DNA of 26,967 bases from a virus: positions 1 to 26,967 of IMG/VR virus record IMGVR_UViG_3300044643_000379. One strand, written 5' to 3'. Of this stretch, positions 1 to 9,863 are shown piece by piece. The position numbers and the translations under genes were made by a program. A model generated the notes under the pieces. It did no database searches. It was not told the origin of the DNA and saw nothing but the letters and a program-made list of their open reading frames with translations. Each line of letters begins with the position of its first letter. The stretch's first letter is position 1.

Positions 1-9
1 AAGTTACGA

Positions 10-96
10 GGTAGAAGCCGTAATATAATTAATCAAAAGAAACGCCTGAGAGGGCGGTTTAGGAGAAAAAACTAACGCGGTTTTTTCGCTTCTACC
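10..96 (+). other. Possible RNA pseudoknot between upstream bases and the bulge of the 45-113 hairpin
   Basis: Bases 10-18 (GGTAGAAGC) are the exact reverse complement of 88-96 (GCTTCTACC). Bases 88-95 are exactly the strand left unpaired as a bulge in the 45-113 hairpin. Pairing 10-18 with 88-96 while 45-53 pairs with 105-113 gives an H-type pseudoknot topology; only C96 would be shared. A rough estimate makes a chance 9-bp match within about 120 bases uncommon but not negligible. Bases 2-28 may be the end of an upstream gene, so the 5' arm could lie in coding sequence. I recognise no known RNA family. Confidence 0.4.
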
Positions 97-121
97 CTAG
101 ACCACTTCTCAGGTTTTTTTT
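45..121 (+). terminator. Large structured hairpin plus U8, directly abutting the helicase start codon
   Basis: Bases 45-53 pair with 105-113 (9 bp, one G-U). After a 2x1 internal loop, 56-63 pair with 96-103 (8 bp, one G-U). After A64 and an 8-nt bulge at 88-95, 65-72 pair perfectly with 80-87, closing the loop UAACGCG. That is about 25 bp in all, followed by eight T at 114-121 and then ATG at 122. The U-tract makes it look like an intrinsic terminator for the upstream transcript. It is much longer than a normal terminator, and the downstream gene has no other leader, so an attenuator or regulatory leader is also possible. The pairing is seen directly; the function is inferred. Confidence 0.65.
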
Positions 122-1717
122 ATGGCATTAAATACAGAACAAATAGAATTACAAAAACAATTGCGCTTATTTATAAGCAGCAATAAAAGTGGTTTTTTTG
201 GGGTTCTTGGTGCGGGGGGAACTGGAAAGACTTACACAATTTGCAATACAATAAACGCAAATAATGCTATTTTTTTAGGGGCTACAAATAAAGTATGTAA
301 TGTACTAAAAGTTGGTTTAATGAAAGAGGGTGTTATAAACCCAAAGATAAAAACTATTGATAGTTTCCTTTCATTTAAGATAAAAAAAGACCACAACAAT
401 CGTTCGGTAATTACCCACAGATTACCAAAATTAGAGAGCGTACCGCCTATTATTGTTATTGATGAAATTTCATTGATAAACACTAGAAGCCTTGATATGT
501 TATTAAAACTAAAGCATAAAAGAAAATTTATACTACTTGGAGATAATATGCAGATTCCGCCAATAGAAGATGAATTTGTTAGAGATGCACAAGGCTTTAA
601 GGTTAGTAAAATATTTACTCATTTAGATTACTCATACACATTAACTACTCAACAAAGACAAAAAGACGGAACGCCGCTTTTTAATTTTATAGCTAACTTT
701 CGCCAACACATGACTAATCGAATGCCATTAGAAAAATTAGCTATTCATCATCAAAACGGCAATGATATACAGTATTTTGATATGAACGATAAAGAACTTA
801 AATCGTACATAAGAAATAGCGATGCAATAGCGGTTTGCTTTAAAAACCTTACTGTACTTAGTTTTTCATGGTTAATCGGATCGACTAAATTAAATCAAAA
901 GCATTATAGAGTAAATGATATAAACATAGGAGATAAGGTTTTTTTTGATAGCTATTACAATGATGAAGAAAATGTATTTTATACTAGCGATACGGTTACC
1001 ATTAAAGACATTGAATTAAATTGTCAAATGGAAGTTGAAATAAAAGAAAATTTATTTGTAACCGTACCTATTAAAAAAATAATGGTTCAAAATATCGATG
1101 AGCAAAGTTTTGTAATAAATTCAGGTATTGGATATAAAGAAACTCTTTACCCAGTATATTACCAAGTAGATAAATGGAGAAATAAATATAAAAAAGAAAT
1201 GCAAGAATCTTTTAATCTTGGTCATTTAAAAAAACCGCATATCATAAAAAAGAAAATTGCAGACTTAAATACAAAATACAGTAACTTTCAAATTGGATTA
1301 GCAAAACTAAAAAAGCCCTTTTCAATAACAAGTCATAAGGCGCAAGGTTCTACTTATAACGATGTAATTATACCTATTTACGATTACTGGGCAAAAGAAC
1401 CGCAAGACGCAAATCAGCTTCTTTATGTTGCATTAAGTAGGGCAAAAGAAAGAATTATATTTGTTAATAGAAAAGAAAATTTTAAGGATAATAATAATAG
1501 ATATAGTTTCACAGAATACGAAAAGTTTTCTATCGCATCTTCTCATGAGTATATTTGTGCAAATTGTAAAATAGAACTTCAAGATAGAGAATTTGATATA
1601 GACCATATTATACCAATTGCCAACGGTGGGAAAAATACAATAGATAACTTGCAACCGCTTTGTAAAAATTGTCATAAAGAAAAATGTAAAACAGAAAAAT
1701 ATGAAAGTTCCATTTAA
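122..1717 (+). CDS. SF1B (Dda/RecD2/Pif1-like) DNA helicase fused to a C-terminal HNH nuclease domain
   Basis: This is a predicted ATP-driven 5'-3' DNA helicase for phage replication or recombination. The N-terminus LNTEQ is the Q-like motif of this family. Walker A is GAGGTGKT (30-37), Walker B IVIDE (111-115), motif III GDNMQIPP (140-147), motif IV TTQQRQ (175-180), motif V TSHKAQGS (403-410) and motif VI YVALSRAKER (435-444). An in-frame HNH module fills residues 476-525: CANC (479-482), DIDH (492-495), NGG (501-503) and CKNCH (514-518). This is the zinc-binding CxxC...DH...N...CxxCH arrangement. The helicase motifs are complete, so the HNH module is an addition and not a replacement. ATG 122 fits the family N-terminus and sits directly after the U8 tract. 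The 3' end overlaps the primase gene by 17 bp. The helicase call is firm; the purpose of the nuclease is unknown. Confidence 0.9.
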   Translation: MALNTEQIELQKQLRLFISSNKSGFFGVLGAGGTGKTYTICNTINANNAIFLGATNKVCNVLKVGLMKEGVINPKIKTIDSFLSFKIKKDHNNRSVITHRLPKLESVPPIIVIDEISLINTRSLDMLLKLKHKRKFILLGDNMQIPPIEDEFVRDAQGFKVSKIFTHLDYSYTLTTQQRQKDGTPLFNFIANFRQHMTNRMPLEKLAIHHQNGNDIQYFDMNDKELKSYIRNSDAIAVCFKNLTVLSFSWLIGSTKLNQKHYRVNDINIGDKVFFDSYYNDEENVFYTSDTVTIKDIELNCQMEVEIKENLFVTVPIKKIMVQNIDEQSFVINSGIGYKETLYPVYYQVDKWRNKYKKEMQESFNLGHLKKPHIIKKKIADLNTKYSNFQIGLAKLKKPFSITSHKAQGSTYNDVIIPIYDYWAKEPQDANQLLYVALSRAKERIIFVNRKENFKDNNNRYSFTEYEKFSIASSHEYICANCKIELQDREFDIDHIIPIANGGKNTIDNLQPLCKNCHKEKCKTEKYESSI

Positions 1718-4073
1718 TTCAAAGATTTCAGTATTTAAAAACATATTCGAGGTAAAAGATACTCCTTATGAAATGACCGTTACTGATATACACGCTAGAA
1801 TAAAAAACGGTTATCCTGAATTGATAGACAAGATAAATAAAATACGAACAAGCGACAACGAGGAATTTGCTGCAAAATTAAAAGCTAGTCTTTTAGGTAT
1901 AATGTTTAACGGAACATTTTCTGAACGTAACGATAATGGACTAATTAACCATAGCGGAATGTGTATATTGGATTTTGATGATTATGAAACACCTGAAGCT
2001 ATGCAAGAAGAAAGAGAAAGAATTTGTGCAGACCGTTACACATTACTTTGCTTTACTTCTCCTTCTGGTAATGGCTTAAAAGTTGTTATTCGTATTCCTA
2101 AATCAGATAAGGATGAACATAAACGCCGATTTTCTGCATACGGTAAGTACATAAATTCAGAAAACTTTGATATAAAGAACTCAAATATTAGTAGGGTATG
2201 TTTTGAAAGCTACGATCCTAATATTTACCTTAATCAATTTTGTGAAGAATTTACCGATATTGATGAAGATAGGGGGTATACTTACACCGAAAGAACTCCC
2301 ATTTGCATATTAGAAAACGAGCAAAAAAAGATTGATATAATAATGGGCTTTTCCTTTAAAAAGGATTTTGCACCTGGAGAAAGAAACGCATACATATTTG
2401 ATTTGGCGGGGTTGTTTTGCGAGTACGGAATAGATAAAATTACCGCAGAAAATTACATACTTAATAATGTAGTTATTGGCGATTTTTCAGAGCGTGAGGC
2501 AAAGACCGCAATAGGTAGCGCATACAAGAAAAGGGTATTTGATAGCAGATTTTTTGAAGATTACGAAAGCGTTAAGAATGTAAAAAATAAGATAAGAAGC
2601 GGAGTAGATAAGGAAATAATTAAAAAGCAATTAAACGTAACTGAAGAAGTAATAAATGAAGTAAAGAACCAGTTAGCTGAATCAGACCAAGTATTTTGGC
2701 AAATAATAAAAGATAAGAAAGGAAATGAAACAATAAGCATTGAACCTAGAAAATACGCTGAATATCTTATAAAGAATGGATTCAATAAATATTATCCTGA
2801 AAATAGTCAATCTCCACAATTTATAGAAATTAAAGAAAATAAGATTAAACTTAGTAGTATAAACCGAATAAAGGACTTTGTGCTTACTATGTTACTTGAA
2901 AGGTCTGAAATATCTGTTTGGAATCATTGCAGTAAAAGCGTTCAGCTATTTAACGAAAACTTTTTAAATATGATTGAAGCGGTAAACCTTACTATGCTTA
3001 AAGATGATAAAGATACAAGCTACTTTCCTTTTAAAAATGGCATTGCTAAGGTTACTAAAAATGACATAAAACTTATACCTTACATTGATTGCGGTGGATA
3101 TGTTTGGGAAGAACATATTATACAACATGACTTCAGAGTAGAAACAGACCATTTCACAGACTTTACAGATTTTATAACAAAGATATCTGGAAGCGAAGAA
3201 ATTAGGACAGAAGCGTTTAAAAGTGCATTAGGATACATACTTCATAATTTTAAAAGTAAGACAGACCAAAAGGCGATAATATTTAACGACCAAGAGGTTG
3301 ATGATAACCCGAATGGCGGTTCAGGCAAATCGCTTATGTTGGATGCTATAAACCGAATAAGAAAAATAGTAAAGATTGACGGTAAACTATACGATCCGAA
3401 AAAATCGGACTTTGTTTATCAGCGTGTTTCACTAGATACGCAAGTTCTTGCATTCGATGATGTAAAAAAGAACTTTAATTTTGAGCAATTGTTTCCGCTT
3501 ATTACTGAAGGCATTACAATTAATAGAAAGAATAAAGAAGAAATATTTGTACCATTTGAGCGCAGCCCCAAAATTATAATAACTACTAACTATGTTATAA
3601 GTGGGAGTGGGGATAGCCATGAAAGACGCAGACACGAAGTTGAGGTATTTCAGTACTTTAATGCAAAACGTAACCCAAGAAAAGAATATGGAAGGCTTCT
3701 TTTTGATGATTGGACTGAACAAGAATTTAACAAGTTCTATAACTTTATGCTATCCAATGTTCAACTTCATTTAAACAAAGGACTTATAAAATACCAGTTA
3801 ATTAACGGAGATATTAAAAGATTTATACAAAATACGCATAAAGACTTTTACGATTGGTGCATTGAGGAAAATATCCCAACAGATAAAAGAATTTATAATT
3901 CAGAGGTTATTCGTAATTTCTGCGATGAACATAAAAACTGGAAAGACCTAAGCAGCAAGGTTTTCTTAAAGTGGGTAGAAAAATGGGCTGAATTTAAAGG
4001 ATATGTTTTTGAAAAAGACAGAGATATTAATGGAAGATATTTTGTAATTCATTCGGAAACATCTCCTTTTTAA
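1701..4073 (+). CDS. Primase-helicase: VirE-N/BT4734-like (AEP-type) domain plus D5-like SF3 helicase
   Basis: A 790-residue replication protein expected to prime and unwind phage DNA. The N-terminal part resembles the VirE N-terminal/BT4734-like domain: an acidic pair in ILDFDD (89-94), SPSGNGLKVVI (120-130) and a later SRVCFESYDP segment (164-173), as in archaeo-eukaryotic primases. A middle linker (about 210-480) is poorly recognisable. The C-terminal part is a D5/poxvirus-type SF3 helicase: Walker A NGGSGKS (538-544), Walker B LAFDD (583-587), sensor TTNY (628-631) and an arginine-rich ERRRHEVEVF segment (641-650). Its start lies inside the end of the helicase-HNH gene, so the two are probably co-translated. 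A strong terminator follows 21 bp after the stop, and the ATGACG repeat region lies beyond it, consistent with action at that site. Confidence 0.88.
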   Translation: MKVPFNSKISVFKNIFEVKDTPYEMTVTDIHARIKNGYPELIDKINKIRTSDNEEFAAKLKASLLGIMFNGTFSERNDNGLINHSGMCILDFDDYETPEAMQEERERICADRYTLLCFTSPSGNGLKVVIRIPKSDKDEHKRRFSAYGKYINSENFDIKNSNISRVCFESYDPNIYLNQFCEEFTDIDEDRGYTYTERTPICILENEQKKIDIIMGFSFKKDFAPGERNAYIFDLAGLFCEYGIDKITAENYILNNVVIGDFSEREAKTAIGSAYKKRVFDSRFFEDYESVKNVKNKIRSGVDKEIIKKQLNVTEEVINEVKNQLAESDQVFWQIIKDKKGNETISIEPRKYAEYLIKNGFNKYYPENSQSPQFIEIKENKIKLSSINRIKDFVLTMLLERSEISVWNHCSKSVQLFNENFLNMIEAVNLTMLKDDKDTSYFPFKNGIAKVTKNDIKLIPYIDCGGYVWEEHIIQHDFRVETDHFTDFTDFITKISGSEEIRTEAFKSALGYILHNFKSKTDQKAIIFNDQEVDDNPNGGSGKSLMLDAINRIRKIVKIDGKLYDPKKSDFVYQRVSLDTQVLAFDDVKKNFNFEQLFPLITEGITINRKNKEEIFVPFERSPKIIITTNYVISGSGDSHERRRHEVEVFQYFNAKRNPRKEYGRLLFDDWTEQEFNKFYNFMLSNVQLHLNKGLIKYQLINGDIKRFIQNTHKDFYDWCIEENIPTDKRIYNSEVIRNFCDEHKNWKDLSSKVFLKWVEKWAEFKGYVFEKDRDINGRYFVIHSETSPF

Positions 4074-4094
4074 TTAAAAATACCATCAAAATAG

Positions 4095-4124
4095 AGAGCA
4101 GACCTAAAAATCTGCTCTTTTTTT
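4095..4124 (+). terminator. Intrinsic terminator of the replication operon
   Basis: AGAGCAGA (4095-4102) pairs perfectly with TCTGCTCT (4111-4118) around an 8-nt loop, and the T run extends to 4124. It lies 21 bp after the primase-helicase stop codon and closes the helicase/primase transcript. The T run is immediately followed by ATGACGG, the first copy of the repeat family in the non-coding region. Confidence 0.9.
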
Positions 4125-4386
4125 ATGACGGAAACCTTAAAAAAACATTAAAAAATGACGCAAAACTGCTTTTTTATGACGGAGAACGGCTTTTTATGAC
4201 GGAGAACATATTATAACGTCATGTAATATGTAATATATAACTCGTTGATTATCAATAGACTATATACTTTTTATATACTATTTTCTTCTTCCATGACGGA
4301 GAGAATAAGAAAAAAAAAGAGAGGAAAAAAAAAGTCAGCTATTGTAAAAACGTGAGTGATTTTATATTTTCTGCGTCATGCGTCAT
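4125..4386. repeat. ATGACG(GA) repeat cluster; candidate replication origin or operator
   Basis: This is the main gene-free stretch of the window. ATGACG occurs on the + strand at 4125, 4155, 4176, 4196 and 4293, and in the inverse orientation (CGTCAT) at 4217-4222, 4374-4379 and 4381-4386. Three of the forward copies extend to ATGACGGAGA. Starts at 4155, 4176 and 4196 are 21 and 20 bp apart, about two helical turns, as in iterons. The last two inverse copies are 7 bp apart. Between 4208 and 4290 the sequence is very AT-rich, with a TTGATTATCAA palindrome at 4245-4255. Position next to the primase-helicase favours an origin. A promoter operator bound by a phage regulator is the main alternative. 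Confidence 0.6.
4342..4370 (+). promoter_or_regulatory. Possible Bacteroidota-type promoter for the sigma-like operon
   Basis: TTG at 4342-4344 and TATATTTT at 4363-4370 are 18 bp apart and resemble the Bacteroidota -33 TTG / -7 TAnnTTTG promoter (7 of 8 at the -7 box). Transcription would begin near 4377, among the last two inverse ATGACG repeats, so a repeat-binding protein could control it. Such AT-rich motifs arise easily by chance. Confidence 0.35.
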
Positions 4387-4466: not shown

Positions 4467-4976
4467 TTGTTACCATCTTTTCATGCAATAGTCGAAAAAG
4501 TTTACACGAGCCAATGGTTTAACGAAGTTATCGACAAGATGCAGCCAGAACAATTGCAGCAGGATTTAAAGCAAGAGGTTATAATGGTGTTACTAGAACT
4601 TCCACAAGAAAGGGTTGAACAAATGGAAGCCGATGGGATGCTAAAGTTTTATACAATTAGGACAATACTTAACATGATTAAGTCCGATAGGTCAAAGTTC
4701 TTTACTATGTTTAGGAATTATGAGGAAATACCCGACATCAAAGAACAAGCCCATGAAGATTATTTTGAAATGCCCGACATTGATTTAAATACTATCTTTG
4801 ACAATACAAGAGAGCAGCTATACGAAAAAGATATGCTTTTTCATTATTGCTATTCTTTTGACCGCAACGCTTTAGCAATGAGTAGAGGTACACAAATACC
4901 CTACAAAACAATTATAAGAACATTAACAAACGCAAAAAACAAAGTTAAATGCTACTTACAATCGCAGCAGCAATAA
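4467..4976 (+). CDS. Sigma-70-like / HTH transcription regulator (putative late-gene switch)
   Basis: I suspect a divergent sigma-factor-like protein. The segment QQDLKQEVIMVLLEL resembles the start of sigma region 2 in short phage and ECF-like sigma proteins. The C-terminal part (MSRGTQIPYKTIIRTLTNAKNKVKCYL, split here for reference as MSRGTQIPYKTII and RTLTNAKNKVKCYL) fits a region-4-like helix-turn-helix followed by a basic helix. The middle is acidic (DIKEQAHEDYFEMPDIDLN). The frame is open from a GTG at 4356, but that start would put repeats, a promoter-like element and a hairpin inside the gene. I therefore prefer the TTG at 4467 (169 residues); ATG 4539 is too far in. It is first in a row of overlapping genes leading to the packaging genes, as expected for a regulator. 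Function is inferred from weak resemblance. Confidence 0.6.
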   Translation: MLPSFHAIVEKVYTSQWFNEVIDKMQPEQLQQDLKQEVIMVLLELPQERVEQMEADGMLKFYTIRTILNMIKSDRSKFFTMFRNYEEIPDIKEQAHEDYFEMPDIDLNTIFDNTREQLYEKDMLFHYCYSFDRNALAMSRGTQIPYKTIIRTLTNAKNKVKCYLQSQQQ

Positions 4977-5185
4977 CGTTTACAATTTGGTTTATTGACA
5001 TTGTACAACTACATAGGGTGCTTAAAATCAATTTTAAGCCCTTTAATTGCCATCCATGCCTTTCGGTATGGGTTTATATTGTTTTTTATTTATCGCCTAA
5101 CCTTGTGGCTCTAATTGCGTTTGGCGCATGTTTTACATCGGTAGCTACTTGCATAATTTCTAAAATGTTAGACAAATGGAATTAA
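4949..5185 (+). CDS. Small two-helix membrane protein with a KPFNCHPCLSVW motif
   Basis: A 78-residue predicted inner-membrane protein. A hydrophobic helix spans about residues 2-20 and a second about 40-72. Between them is KPFNCHPCLSVW, with two cysteines three apart. This conserved-looking motif resembles small membrane proteins found in other Bacteroidota phages, but their role is unknown to me. The gene starts inside the end of the sigma-like gene (28 bp overlap) and its end overlaps the next gene by 10 bp, so the three are probably translationally coupled. Holin or antiholin activity is possible from topology alone, but it lies far from the lysis block. Confidence 0.7.
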   Translation: MLLTIAAAITFTIWFIDIVQLHRVLKINFKPFNCHPCLSVWVYIVFYLSPNLVALIAFGACFTSVATCIISKMLDKWN

Positions 5186-5436
5186 AGCCCGAACATTTAG
5201 CCTTTTTAAAAGCAAATGAACATCATTTTGCTACCGCCAAAGATGGTTGGGTGCAAAACGTAGAGGGGTTAGATATGCTTGAACACATATACCATCAATA
5301 CTTAGATAGCCGATTTATATTAACTAAATGGTGTAAAGATTGCGTATTTAATATGATTTTAAGACTTGCACATTTATACGAACTAAATAAACCCAATGAG
5401 AATACTAGCACTAGGAAGCCTAAACTCAGGCGTTAG
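5176..5436 (+). CDS. Hypothetical protein with a WCKDC motif
   Basis: An 86-residue, probably soluble protein that I cannot assign. Visible features are an N-terminal LxxNEHHFATAKDGWVQN segment, a TKWCKDC motif that could bind metal or form a disulphide, and a basic Asn-rich tail (last about 18 residues). It overlaps the membrane-protein gene by 10 bp upstream and the glycosyltransferase gene by 41 bp downstream. The long downstream overlap makes the basic tail look like an extension read into a newly joined gene. No function is proposed. Confidence 0.65.
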   Translation: MELKPEHLAFLKANEHHFATAKDGWVQNVEGLDMLEHIYHQYLDSRFILTKWCKDCVFNMILRLAHLYELNKPNENTSTRKPKLRR

Positions 5437-6421
5437 CTTTCATCGTATTATAATGCCTTTAATCTATATGGTTCAAGGTACTAATGACTTTGTAAAGATA
5501 ACCAACCAAATAGACAATGAACAACTTGAACAAGGTTGGGATATTGTAGTAATGAATAGGTCGGTTAGTTTCCCTGCTCATAAAATGGCAGAGTTTAAAC
5601 AAAGGTATGGCTTTACCTTAGTTGTGGACAATGACGATTATTGGGAACTTGATCCGCATCATAACCTTGCCGACCATTACCTTACTAATAACATTGCCCA
5701 ACAAATTATAGACTACATACAAATAGCCGATATTTGTACCGTAACCCATGAAAGGTTGGCGGCTGAAGTTTATAAGTACAATAAAAACGTACATGTAATT
5801 CCAAACGCTTTGCCCTTTGGTGATGGTCAATTTAGTGCAGCCAAACAACCATCGGATAAAGTACGTTTGTTTTGGTCTGGTAGCGATACCCATGCACAAG
5901 ATGTTTCTATACTAAGAAATCCAATGCAAAGAGTATACGGTGATTATGATTTAAGAAGTAAGATTAAAACCAACATGGCTGGTTATACCGAAAAAGCTAA
6001 ACCCATTTGGGATATTATGATTTCGGCATTTACAACAGGGTTGAGGTTTGATTCAACTATTTATCAAATAGCATTGCCCGAAAAGTACATGAATGCTTAT
6101 TGTGATTCTGATATATCGGTTATCCCTTTGCTTAACACAAAGTTTAACGGTTATAAATCTAACTTAAAAGTATTGGAAGCCGCCACAAAGCGTAACCCTG
6201 CTATTGTTAGCATGGTTGACCCTTACCTTGATATGCCTTTGTGTTATGTACGCTCTCAACAATATTGGTACAAATGGATAAAGGAATTAGTAAACGATAA
6301 AGCCATGAGAGAAGAAAAAGGGAATGAGTTGTTTAATTATTGCAATAAGCATTTTAATTTATTAACCGTAAATAAGAAAAGGCATGAATTATATTCATCC
6401 AACTGCCATAATTTATCCTGA
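5396..6421 (+). CDS. Glycosyltransferase, GT-B fold (GT4/GT1-like)
   Basis: A 341-residue protein resembling phage-encoded GT-B glycosyltransferases. The N-terminus RILALGSLNSGVSFHR is the first Rossmann strand and loop typical of this group. VVDNDDYWELDPHH (about 76-89) and the segment NVHVIPNALPF mark the domain junction. RLFWSGSDTHAQDV starts the second Rossmann domain, and DISVIPLLNTKFNGYKSNLKVLEAA carries the nucleotide-sugar-binding Lys/Glu region. It would transfer a sugar from an activated nucleotide donor; donor and acceptor are not readable. It is the first of three glycan genes and shares 38 bp with the acyltransferase gene. A role in altering host surface glycans or glycosylating the virion is inferred. 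Confidence 0.8.
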   Translation: MRILALGSLNSGVSFHRIIMPLIYMVQGTNDFVKITNQIDNEQLEQGWDIVVMNRSVSFPAHKMAEFKQRYGFTLVVDNDDYWELDPHHNLADHYLTNNIAQQIIDYIQIADICTVTHERLAAEVYKYNKNVHVIPNALPFGDGQFSAAKQPSDKVRLFWSGSDTHAQDVSILRNPMQRVYGDYDLRSKIKTNMAGYTEKAKPIWDIMISAFTTGLRFDSTIYQIALPEKYMNAYCDSDISVIPLLNTKFNGYKSNLKVLEAATKRNPAIVSMVDPYLDMPLCYVRSQQYWYKWIKELVNDKAMREEKGNELFNYCNKHFNLLTVNKKRHELYSSNCHNLS

Positions 6422-6860
6422 TGTAATTTTAGGCAATAATTGCTACATCGGTGCTTATTGTATTATAGGCGCACCGCCAGAATGGAAAGGTAAAGAGCAA
6501 CAAGGTAAAGGCGTTTTTATAGGAAACGATGTAAGGATAACTGGGCATGTTACAATAGATTCGGGTGTAGAAAATAAAACCTTTATTGGTAGCGGTTGCT
6601 ACATAATGAAAGGGGTGCATATTGGGCATGATGTTTATGTATTTCAAGATTGCACATTATCCTGCCATTGTTTAATAGGTGGTCATAGCATTATTCAAAA
6701 AAATACTAATATAGGTTTGGGTGCTATTGTTCATCAAAAGTTAATAGTACCGCCAGGATGTATGATAGGCATGGGAACTGTTGTAACAAAGCGCACACAA
6801 ATGCAACCTAATTCAAAATACGTTGGAAACCCTGCAAGATATTTAAGCCCAAACAAATGA
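6384..6860 (+). CDS. LpxA-like left-handed beta-helix acyltransferase
   Basis: The 158 residues are almost entirely hexapeptide repeats ([LIV]-G-x-x repeats from residue 3 to about 135), the left-handed beta-helix of acyl/acetyltransferases. The resemblance is closest to LpxA: HPTAII at the start, then the VHIGHD segment with His79 and His82, which lines up with the catalytic-His region of LpxA, and AIVHQ (His117). It lacks the C-terminal helical domain of cellular LpxA (about 260 residues), so substrate choice may differ. It sits between two glycosyltransferase genes and overlaps both (38 bp and 4 bp). A role in acylating an LPS or O-antigen sugar is plausible; a simpler sugar O- or N-acetyltransferase is the alternative. 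Confidence 0.82.
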   Translation: MNYIHPTAIIYPDVILGNNCYIGAYCIIGAPPEWKGKEQQGKGVFIGNDVRITGHVTIDSGVENKTFIGSGCYIMKGVHIGHDVYVFQDCTLSCHCLIGGHSIIQKNTNIGLGAIVHQKLIVPPGCMIGMGTVVTKRTQMQPNSKYVGNPARYLSPNK

Positions 6861-9833: not shown

Positions 9834-9863
9834 AGCCCTTTGTTTCTACAAGGGGCTTTTTTT
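9834..9863 (+). terminator. Intrinsic terminator after the packaging operon
   Basis: AGCCCTTTG (9834-9842) pairs with CAAGGGGCT (9849-9857), 9 bp with one G-U, around TTTCTA. Seven T run to 9863. It separates the terminase/frameshift transcript from the tail module. The 108-bp gap 9794-9901 also holds two copies of TTTGTTTTTT (9802-9811 and 9821-9830) and a TATATTTG match. Confidence 0.88.

Follow-up and report, generated by a model that had tools for sequence, protein, structure and literature searches.

A covarying pseudoknot interleaved with an intrinsic terminator upstream of gene starts in Bacteroidetes phages: a candidate family of 5′ leader RNAs

Results

Features of the locus

The DNA analysed (hereafter, the window) is an entire IMG/VR record of 26,967 nucleotides that starts at a structured RNA occupying positions 1–121. 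A Bacteroidetes phage is indicated by the type of promoter (from homology), by a BT4734-like primase and by this primase's relatives in Flavobacterium and Polaribacter phages. In the window, a helicase-HNH gene is followed by the primase gene (122–4073), an order reversed with respect to that of the loci L005–L009 and L011, where the primase comes first. Repeated units around TTTTTATGACGGAGAA, possibly origin iterons or another control region, are present between the primase gene and the ORF at 4356 (4110–4300), and the stretch that separates the replication genes from the terminase genes (5396–6860) contains one glycosyltransferase-like gene (phrog_7162) and one encoding a hexapeptide-repeat transferase. 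The features relevant to this work, all on the plus strand, are as follows:

2, plus strand: predicted transcription start (+1), by homology; promoter just outside the window
3–24, plus strand: P1, 5′ hairpin (3–8/19–24) with a 10-nt loop at 9–18 (RNAfold; covariation)
10–18, plus strand: 5′ strand of the pseudoknot, GGUAGAAGC, in the P1 loop; exact complement of 88–96
43–56, plus strand: alternative local hairpin (43–47/52–56), candidate antiterminator (nascent-chain folding prediction)
45–53, plus strand: 5′ arm of P2, the terminator base, pairing with 105–113 (fold, covariation)
56–63, plus strand: 5′ arm of P3, pairing with 96–103 (fold, covariation)
65–87, plus strand: P4 hairpin (65–72/80–87), with double changes in 7 of 8 pairs in both alignments
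88–96, plus strand: 3′ strand of the pseudoknot, GCUUCUACC, between the 3′ arms of P4 and P3 (complementarity, covariation)
97–113, plus strand: 3′ arms of P3 and P2 (fold, covariation)
114–121, plus strand: U8 tract of the intrinsic terminator, running into ATG (sequence; U-run in homologues)
122–1717, plus strand: Dda-like SF1 helicase with a C-terminal HNH domain (Pfam and PHROG matches)

Architecture of the RNA

The first-pass annotation of the window had described three helices (45–53/105–113, 56–63/96–103 and 65–72/80–87), a bulge at 88–95 complementary to 11–18 with G10–C96 as a ninth pair beyond these segments, and a U8 tract running straight into the ATG at 122. All of these elements were recovered at the same positions, the helices both in the sequence and in the predicted fold. 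An extra helix, P1, had been missed, and its loop displays the 5′ strand of the pseudoknot. With the pseudoknot excluded from the calculation, RNAfold gave −39.9 kcal/mol for the window RNA compared to −24.4 ± 3.0 kcal/mol for dinucleotide shuffles (n = 200; z = −5.2), none of which was as stable. The base just 5′ of the pseudoknot strand, A9, is invariant (19/19; alignment A11), and A64, which forms a conserved bulge before P4, is an A in 18 of 19 sequences (alignment column 65).

The stem 45–53/105–113 followed by U8 has the form of an intrinsic (Rho-independent) terminator, and a U-run is found 3′ of the stem in every homologue listed. Other U-tailed hairpins of the window, such as those at 4093–4120 and 9834–9857, are simple, which is in line with the earlier remark that this is the most elaborate terminator present.

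Homologues of the RNA

At least 36 distinct close relatives were found in IMG/VR, with one copy of the RNA per record within this clade. A pattern scan with the pseudoknot strands retrieved 20 loci, 12 of which carry the whole architecture with varied stems; among these 12, L028, L034, L036 and L037 have an RNA nearly identical to that of the window, with a different gene behind it. Thirteen further loci (E-values from 1e-7 to 1e-10) were obtained with a three-sequence covariance model run on relatives of the downstream genes, and the R2 search added L140–L142. A second pattern, fixing just parts of P2, P3 and P4, returned 44 loci, of which 31 were members, the pseudoknot of each pairing at 8/8 positions while its sequence varied; the others were discarded as GC-rich chance matches. 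The RNA was not found by blastn against phage records because it diverges too fast. As for bacterial genomes, the five matches of the pattern scan were all attributed to chance, and the R2 search over 395 Bacteroidota genomes gave none, a weak negative given that about nine candidates were scored per genome.

Covariation supports P1, P2–P4 and the pseudoknot

In an alignment of 19 sequences, 94.3% of cells were paired and double changes were observed in 26 of 37 pairs, with 157 double-changed cells compared to 43.9 after shuffling; sliding the registers by 1–3 lowered pairing to 33–45%. Similar values were obtained with a set of 33 sequences (32 distinct) whose members were not chosen by the pseudoknot, in which 95.1% of cells were paired and 180 were double-changed, versus 51.7 after shuffling. 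The pseudoknot was Watson–Crick paired in all 256 cells of the 32 distinct sequences, 54 of them changed on both sides, none on one side and none to G–U, and slid registers were paired in 16–47%. In both alignments, P1 was paired in 100% of cells with 4 of 5 pairs doubly changed, and P2 and P3 together were paired in 98.7% (19 sequences) and 99.4% (33 sequences) of cells.

Within the 5′ strand of the pseudoknot, G11, U12, A16 and C18 are invariant and positions 13, 14, 15 and 17 are variable; invariance in the segments fixed by the search patterns is partly by construction, as the exact pseudoknot had served to find 10 of the 19 sequences of the first set, and fixed P2/P3/P4 parts most of those of the second. 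The P2 divergence derived from one alignment was inflated by alignment shifts and was left out of the conclusions.

At the level of sequence comparison, P1, the pseudoknot of its loop and stems P2–P4 are all shown to be kept by compensatory change. These changes in homologues support the original proposal of a pseudoknot-capable structured RNA set against a start codon, and bases 1–28 were not found to be conserved merely as coding sequence. The same data bear on the view that the element is an ordinary terminator for upstream transcription whose complementary bulge is incidental. Phage operons often have terminators between modules, and the stem and U-tract do resemble a strong intrinsic terminator, but the covarying pseudoknot and P1, as well as a promoter directly upstream (see below), exclude this as a full account, and we regard it as almost certainly wrong.

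No match to Rfam 15 was obtained at the gathering threshold in the window or in nine homologous loci; at relaxed E-values, nothing credible appeared in the window and nothing matched the RNA in nine further loci. The first-pass statement that no known family could be recognised is in agreement with this. A HEARO/omega RNA beside an HNH nuclease was also considered and rejected, as no Rfam match was found and the gene encodes a Dda-like helicase with HNH and not an IscB-type protein.

Promoter and transcription start

In L028 and L036, the same RNA is preceded by TATATTTG-TAC, and in L028, whose RNA is identical to that of the window, the promoter TATATTTG ends three bases before the equivalent of window base 1. 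Since the −7 element of F. johnsoniae occupies −12 to −5 (PMC6847099), the position of the box in L028 and L036 places the predicted +1 at window base 2. With such a start, bases 1–28 would not be coding; the reading frame in this segment (SYEVEAVI*) was dismissed as accidental on the basis of the promoter position in L028/L036 and of the compensatory changes in the P1 stem.

A TAHHTTTG-like (Bacteroidetes −7-like) box was present in 36/36 distinct close relatives, P1 beginning 4–7 nt 3′ of it in 34/36. An ORF of at least 40 codons begins beside the U-tract in 35/36, with the ATG usually within 20 nt. A promoter upstream and a gene start directly downstream, across different genes, correspond to the arrangement of a 5′ leader. 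On the antisense strand, a TAHHTTTG-like box was found in just 3/36 members, a count that refers to the box consensus only, non-consensus promoters being possible.

The RNA precedes unrelated genes

Besides the helicase, genes behind the RNA encode ResIII/DEAD helicases, DUF6291 proteins and proteins without a Pfam match, and replication functions are common among the genes further downstream, where readable. The RNA of L028 comprises all 121 bases of that of the window and stands before a gene unrelated to the window helicase: window 1–127 and L028 ~4920–5046 are identical over the RNA and the first codons, the sequences part right after ATGGCA, and unrelated genes follow. In this comparison, the leader acts like a module that can be exchanged between genes, and a break of the contig at the RNA may result from the presence of this RNA in several phages.

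Autoregulation by the helicase-HNH protein, one of the roles raised in the first-pass annotation, is unlikely because the same RNA precedes differing, unrelated genes. In the helicase relatives L005–L009 and L011, the primase gene is followed by the helicase gene with a junction of ~10 nt, and no such RNA was found at this junction. An RNA linked to the helicase was ruled out, as relatives of the helicase carry none before that gene.

Diverged versions

A looser architecture (a −7 box, a 5′ segment pairing into the terminator, a U-tract and an ATG), unrelated in sequence to the window RNA, was recognised by inspection in relatives of the window's primase (L003, L009 with two copies, L011 and L022) and in the cultured phages 11b, elemo, lillamy and Cellulophaga phi13:2 (two copies). 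The copies of L009 (2472–2582 and 3882–4001) have different pseudoknots on one contig, one preceding a NUMOD4/HNH/AP2 homing-type endonuclease gene and the other the primase gene; likewise, those of phi13:2 are each ahead of a different gene. These Flavobacterium/Cellulophaga and L003/L009/L011/L022 versions are, on sequence grounds, probable but not proven relatives of the window RNA. Since the background of an unrestricted cassette scan was sizeable (45 reverse-complement matches versus 13–21 for control match types), diverged members were graded on individual inspection. Among cassettes with a promoter and a terminator, an ATG was located at most 35 nt from the U-tract in 41/45 with a pseudoknot match and in 46/96 without one, a contrast inflated by related sequences.

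Two further observations were made. Upstream of a DUF6291-like gene in L154, L157, L159, L160 and L179, a TAnnATTG-like box is followed by an ATG, and a 5′ segment is complementary to a strand within a GC-rich terminator; this group is perhaps another branch of the same design. In L031, a GC-rich phage contig, the same pattern found a pair of hairpins (2725–2795) with exactly complementary (kissing) loops, GGTAGAAGC/GCTTCTACC, probably unrelated to the window RNA.

Discussion

The RNA is probably an on/off gate for phage genes. With slightly better than even confidence, we interpret it as a cis-acting 5′ leader that would gate the downstream gene or operon by attenuating transcription and, coupled to this, occluding the start codon. 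In the corresponding model, transcription would start at P1, which would form first, followed by the local hairpin 43–56. The emerging 88–96 strand would then capture the P1 loop, nucleate P3 and displace hairpin 43–56, after which P2 would close and lead to termination, the pseudoknot and terminator together representing the OFF state. Hairpin 43–56, which uses the 5′ arm of P2 and the foot of P3, would be the ON intermediate, and a putative factor could preserve it and keep the genes ON by holding on to P1 or to the P1 loop, or by modifying RNA polymerase. The order of folding could in this way decide between read-through and termination, pseudoknot capture favouring the latter. In a read-through transcript, the same fold would put the AUG 0–20 nt from a stable stem and so limit translation, given that mRNA structure close to the start codon tunes the initiation of translation in F. 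johnsoniae and that Bacteroidetes translation is sensitive to such structure (PMC6847099).

The switch is a putative one, as are its trigger and direction. When the nascent chain was folded up to base 87, hairpin 43–47/52–56, which cannot coexist with P2 or the base of P3, was predicted, and of 23 members folded, most gave an equivalent; it was not predicted in L140–L142 and was not obvious in more diverged versions. The terminator fold is thermodynamically dominant. The ON state is put forward conditionally for these reasons. Moreover, the pseudoknot and the terminator can coexist, and therefore the pseudoknot could equally serve RNA stability.

An attenuator leader is favoured over an independent small RNA. 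A stand-alone, stable RNA acting in trans on a host or phage target, with the pseudoknot guarding its 5′ end, the terminator making its 3′ end and the nearby ATG reflecting compact phage genomes, would be consistent with the element having a promoter and a terminator of its own, with a transcript beginning at P1 and with the single copy per record in the close-relative clade. This reading is nevertheless unlikely, as the ORF beside the U-tract in 35/36 relatives leaves no space for a second promoter, paired copies in some phages precede different genes, and the pseudoknot varies so widely in sequence that it would be unable to bind one fixed target. The leader is the most economical reading because the gap separating the U-tract from the ATG cannot accommodate a promoter and because a phage can carry two leaders.

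Antitermination of the HK022 put kind, in which the folded nascent RNA binds RNA polymerase, which then ignores its own and later terminators, was also weighed. As with putL (PMC9378689), the window RNA is a structured phage RNA that comes directly after an early promoter and is followed by early genes. However, put is ~70 nt long, consists of two stem-loops without a pseudoknot-terminator and suppresses distant terminators (PMC9378689), whereas the window RNA is ~120 nt long, pseudoknotted, and both ends in and interleaves with its own terminator, so that we hold this kind of antitermination to be distinctly improbable.

The variability of the pseudoknot suggests a further role, that of a trans-acting immunity or incompatibility determinant in which the pseudoknot is the specificity code and the RNA of one phage shuts the same-code leader of a second, a logic similar to that of the pT181 countertranscript attenuator, the ColIb-P9 pseudoknot/Inc RNA switch or phage P4 CI RNA. 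Its four invariant and four variable positions, strictly Watson–Crick and without G–U, would fit such a code, as would near-identical leaders with different codes: L061 and L264 differ in 2/8 pseudoknot pairs with 1.3% divergence elsewhere. In 17 close pairs, 17.6% of sites differ in the pseudoknot, 20% in P1 and 4.7% in the rest of the RNA, a rate comparison biased by the many pairs found with the pattern fixing part of P2/P3/P4. Upstream flanks, however, differ as much as P1, promoter-like antisense boxes occur in just 3/36, and the cis strand should outcompete an RNA in trans; we consider this determinant very unlikely. Each change in the pseudoknot requires a partner change, yet 17.6% of sites differ, an excess divergence that stems in part from the search pattern but may reflect diversifying selection, as in an incompatibility code. 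The pseudoknot might be an identity code, four positions holding the fold and four strictly Watson–Crick ones diversifying among phages that are almost identical otherwise, by which the leaders of co-infecting phages or of the same phage would be insulated from one another's RNAs or specifically shut off by them, a possibility to which we assign a low likelihood.

With regard to known systems, we place the RNA among the structured 5′ leaders or attenuators, a known kind in which it forms a new family. Phage P4 CI and P1 c4 immunity RNAs, which are leader-derived, contain complementary segments and lie ahead of replication or antirepressor genes, act by antisense pairing in trans; the window RNA resembles them in having complementary segments in a leader ahead of phage genes. 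Pseudoknotted riboswitches and ribosomal-protein leaders that contain intrinsic terminators likewise have a pseudoknot near or overlapping the expression platform in the 5′ UTR, but the window RNA has no conserved ligand pocket that we recognised, no Rfam match and varying downstream genes. Among the systems cited in PMC10724649, the pT181 attenuator, which is countertranscript-driven and controlled by antisense RNA, resembles the window RNA in being a structured leader ahead of a replication gene, able to stop transcription before the coding region is reached, and in ColIb-P9 (IncI-alpha repZ), a 5′ hairpin loop similarly pseudoknots with a strand near the start of the replication gene. In contrast to pT181, no conserved antisense promoter was found for the window RNA, and the overlapping antisense RNA gene of pT181/ColIb-type systems was not apparent (TAHHTTTG-like antisense box in 3/36); unlike in ColIb-P9, the paired strand of the window RNA is inside the terminator stem. 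The ColIb-P9 pseudoknot activates translation, with no terminator involved. In full-text searches of the open (non-subscription, non-preprint) literature, no comparable leader or pseudoknot RNA from a Bacteroidetes phage was found.

Taken together, the data give good support to an uncatalogued RNA family, located at promoters of early or replication genes, in which a covarying pseudoknot is integrated into a terminator. The Bacteroidetes are one of the most abundant bacterial phyla, and the timing of phage gene expression in them is poorly understood. Exact point mutations that break and restore the pseudoknot are defined, cultured phages of Flavobacterium and Cellulophaga carry diverged versions, and the pattern of four fixed and four variable pseudoknot positions is a concrete puzzle amenable to experiment. 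If the identity code were true, Bacteroidetes phages would possess a system for superinfection exclusion or regulon addressing that relies on RNA alone.
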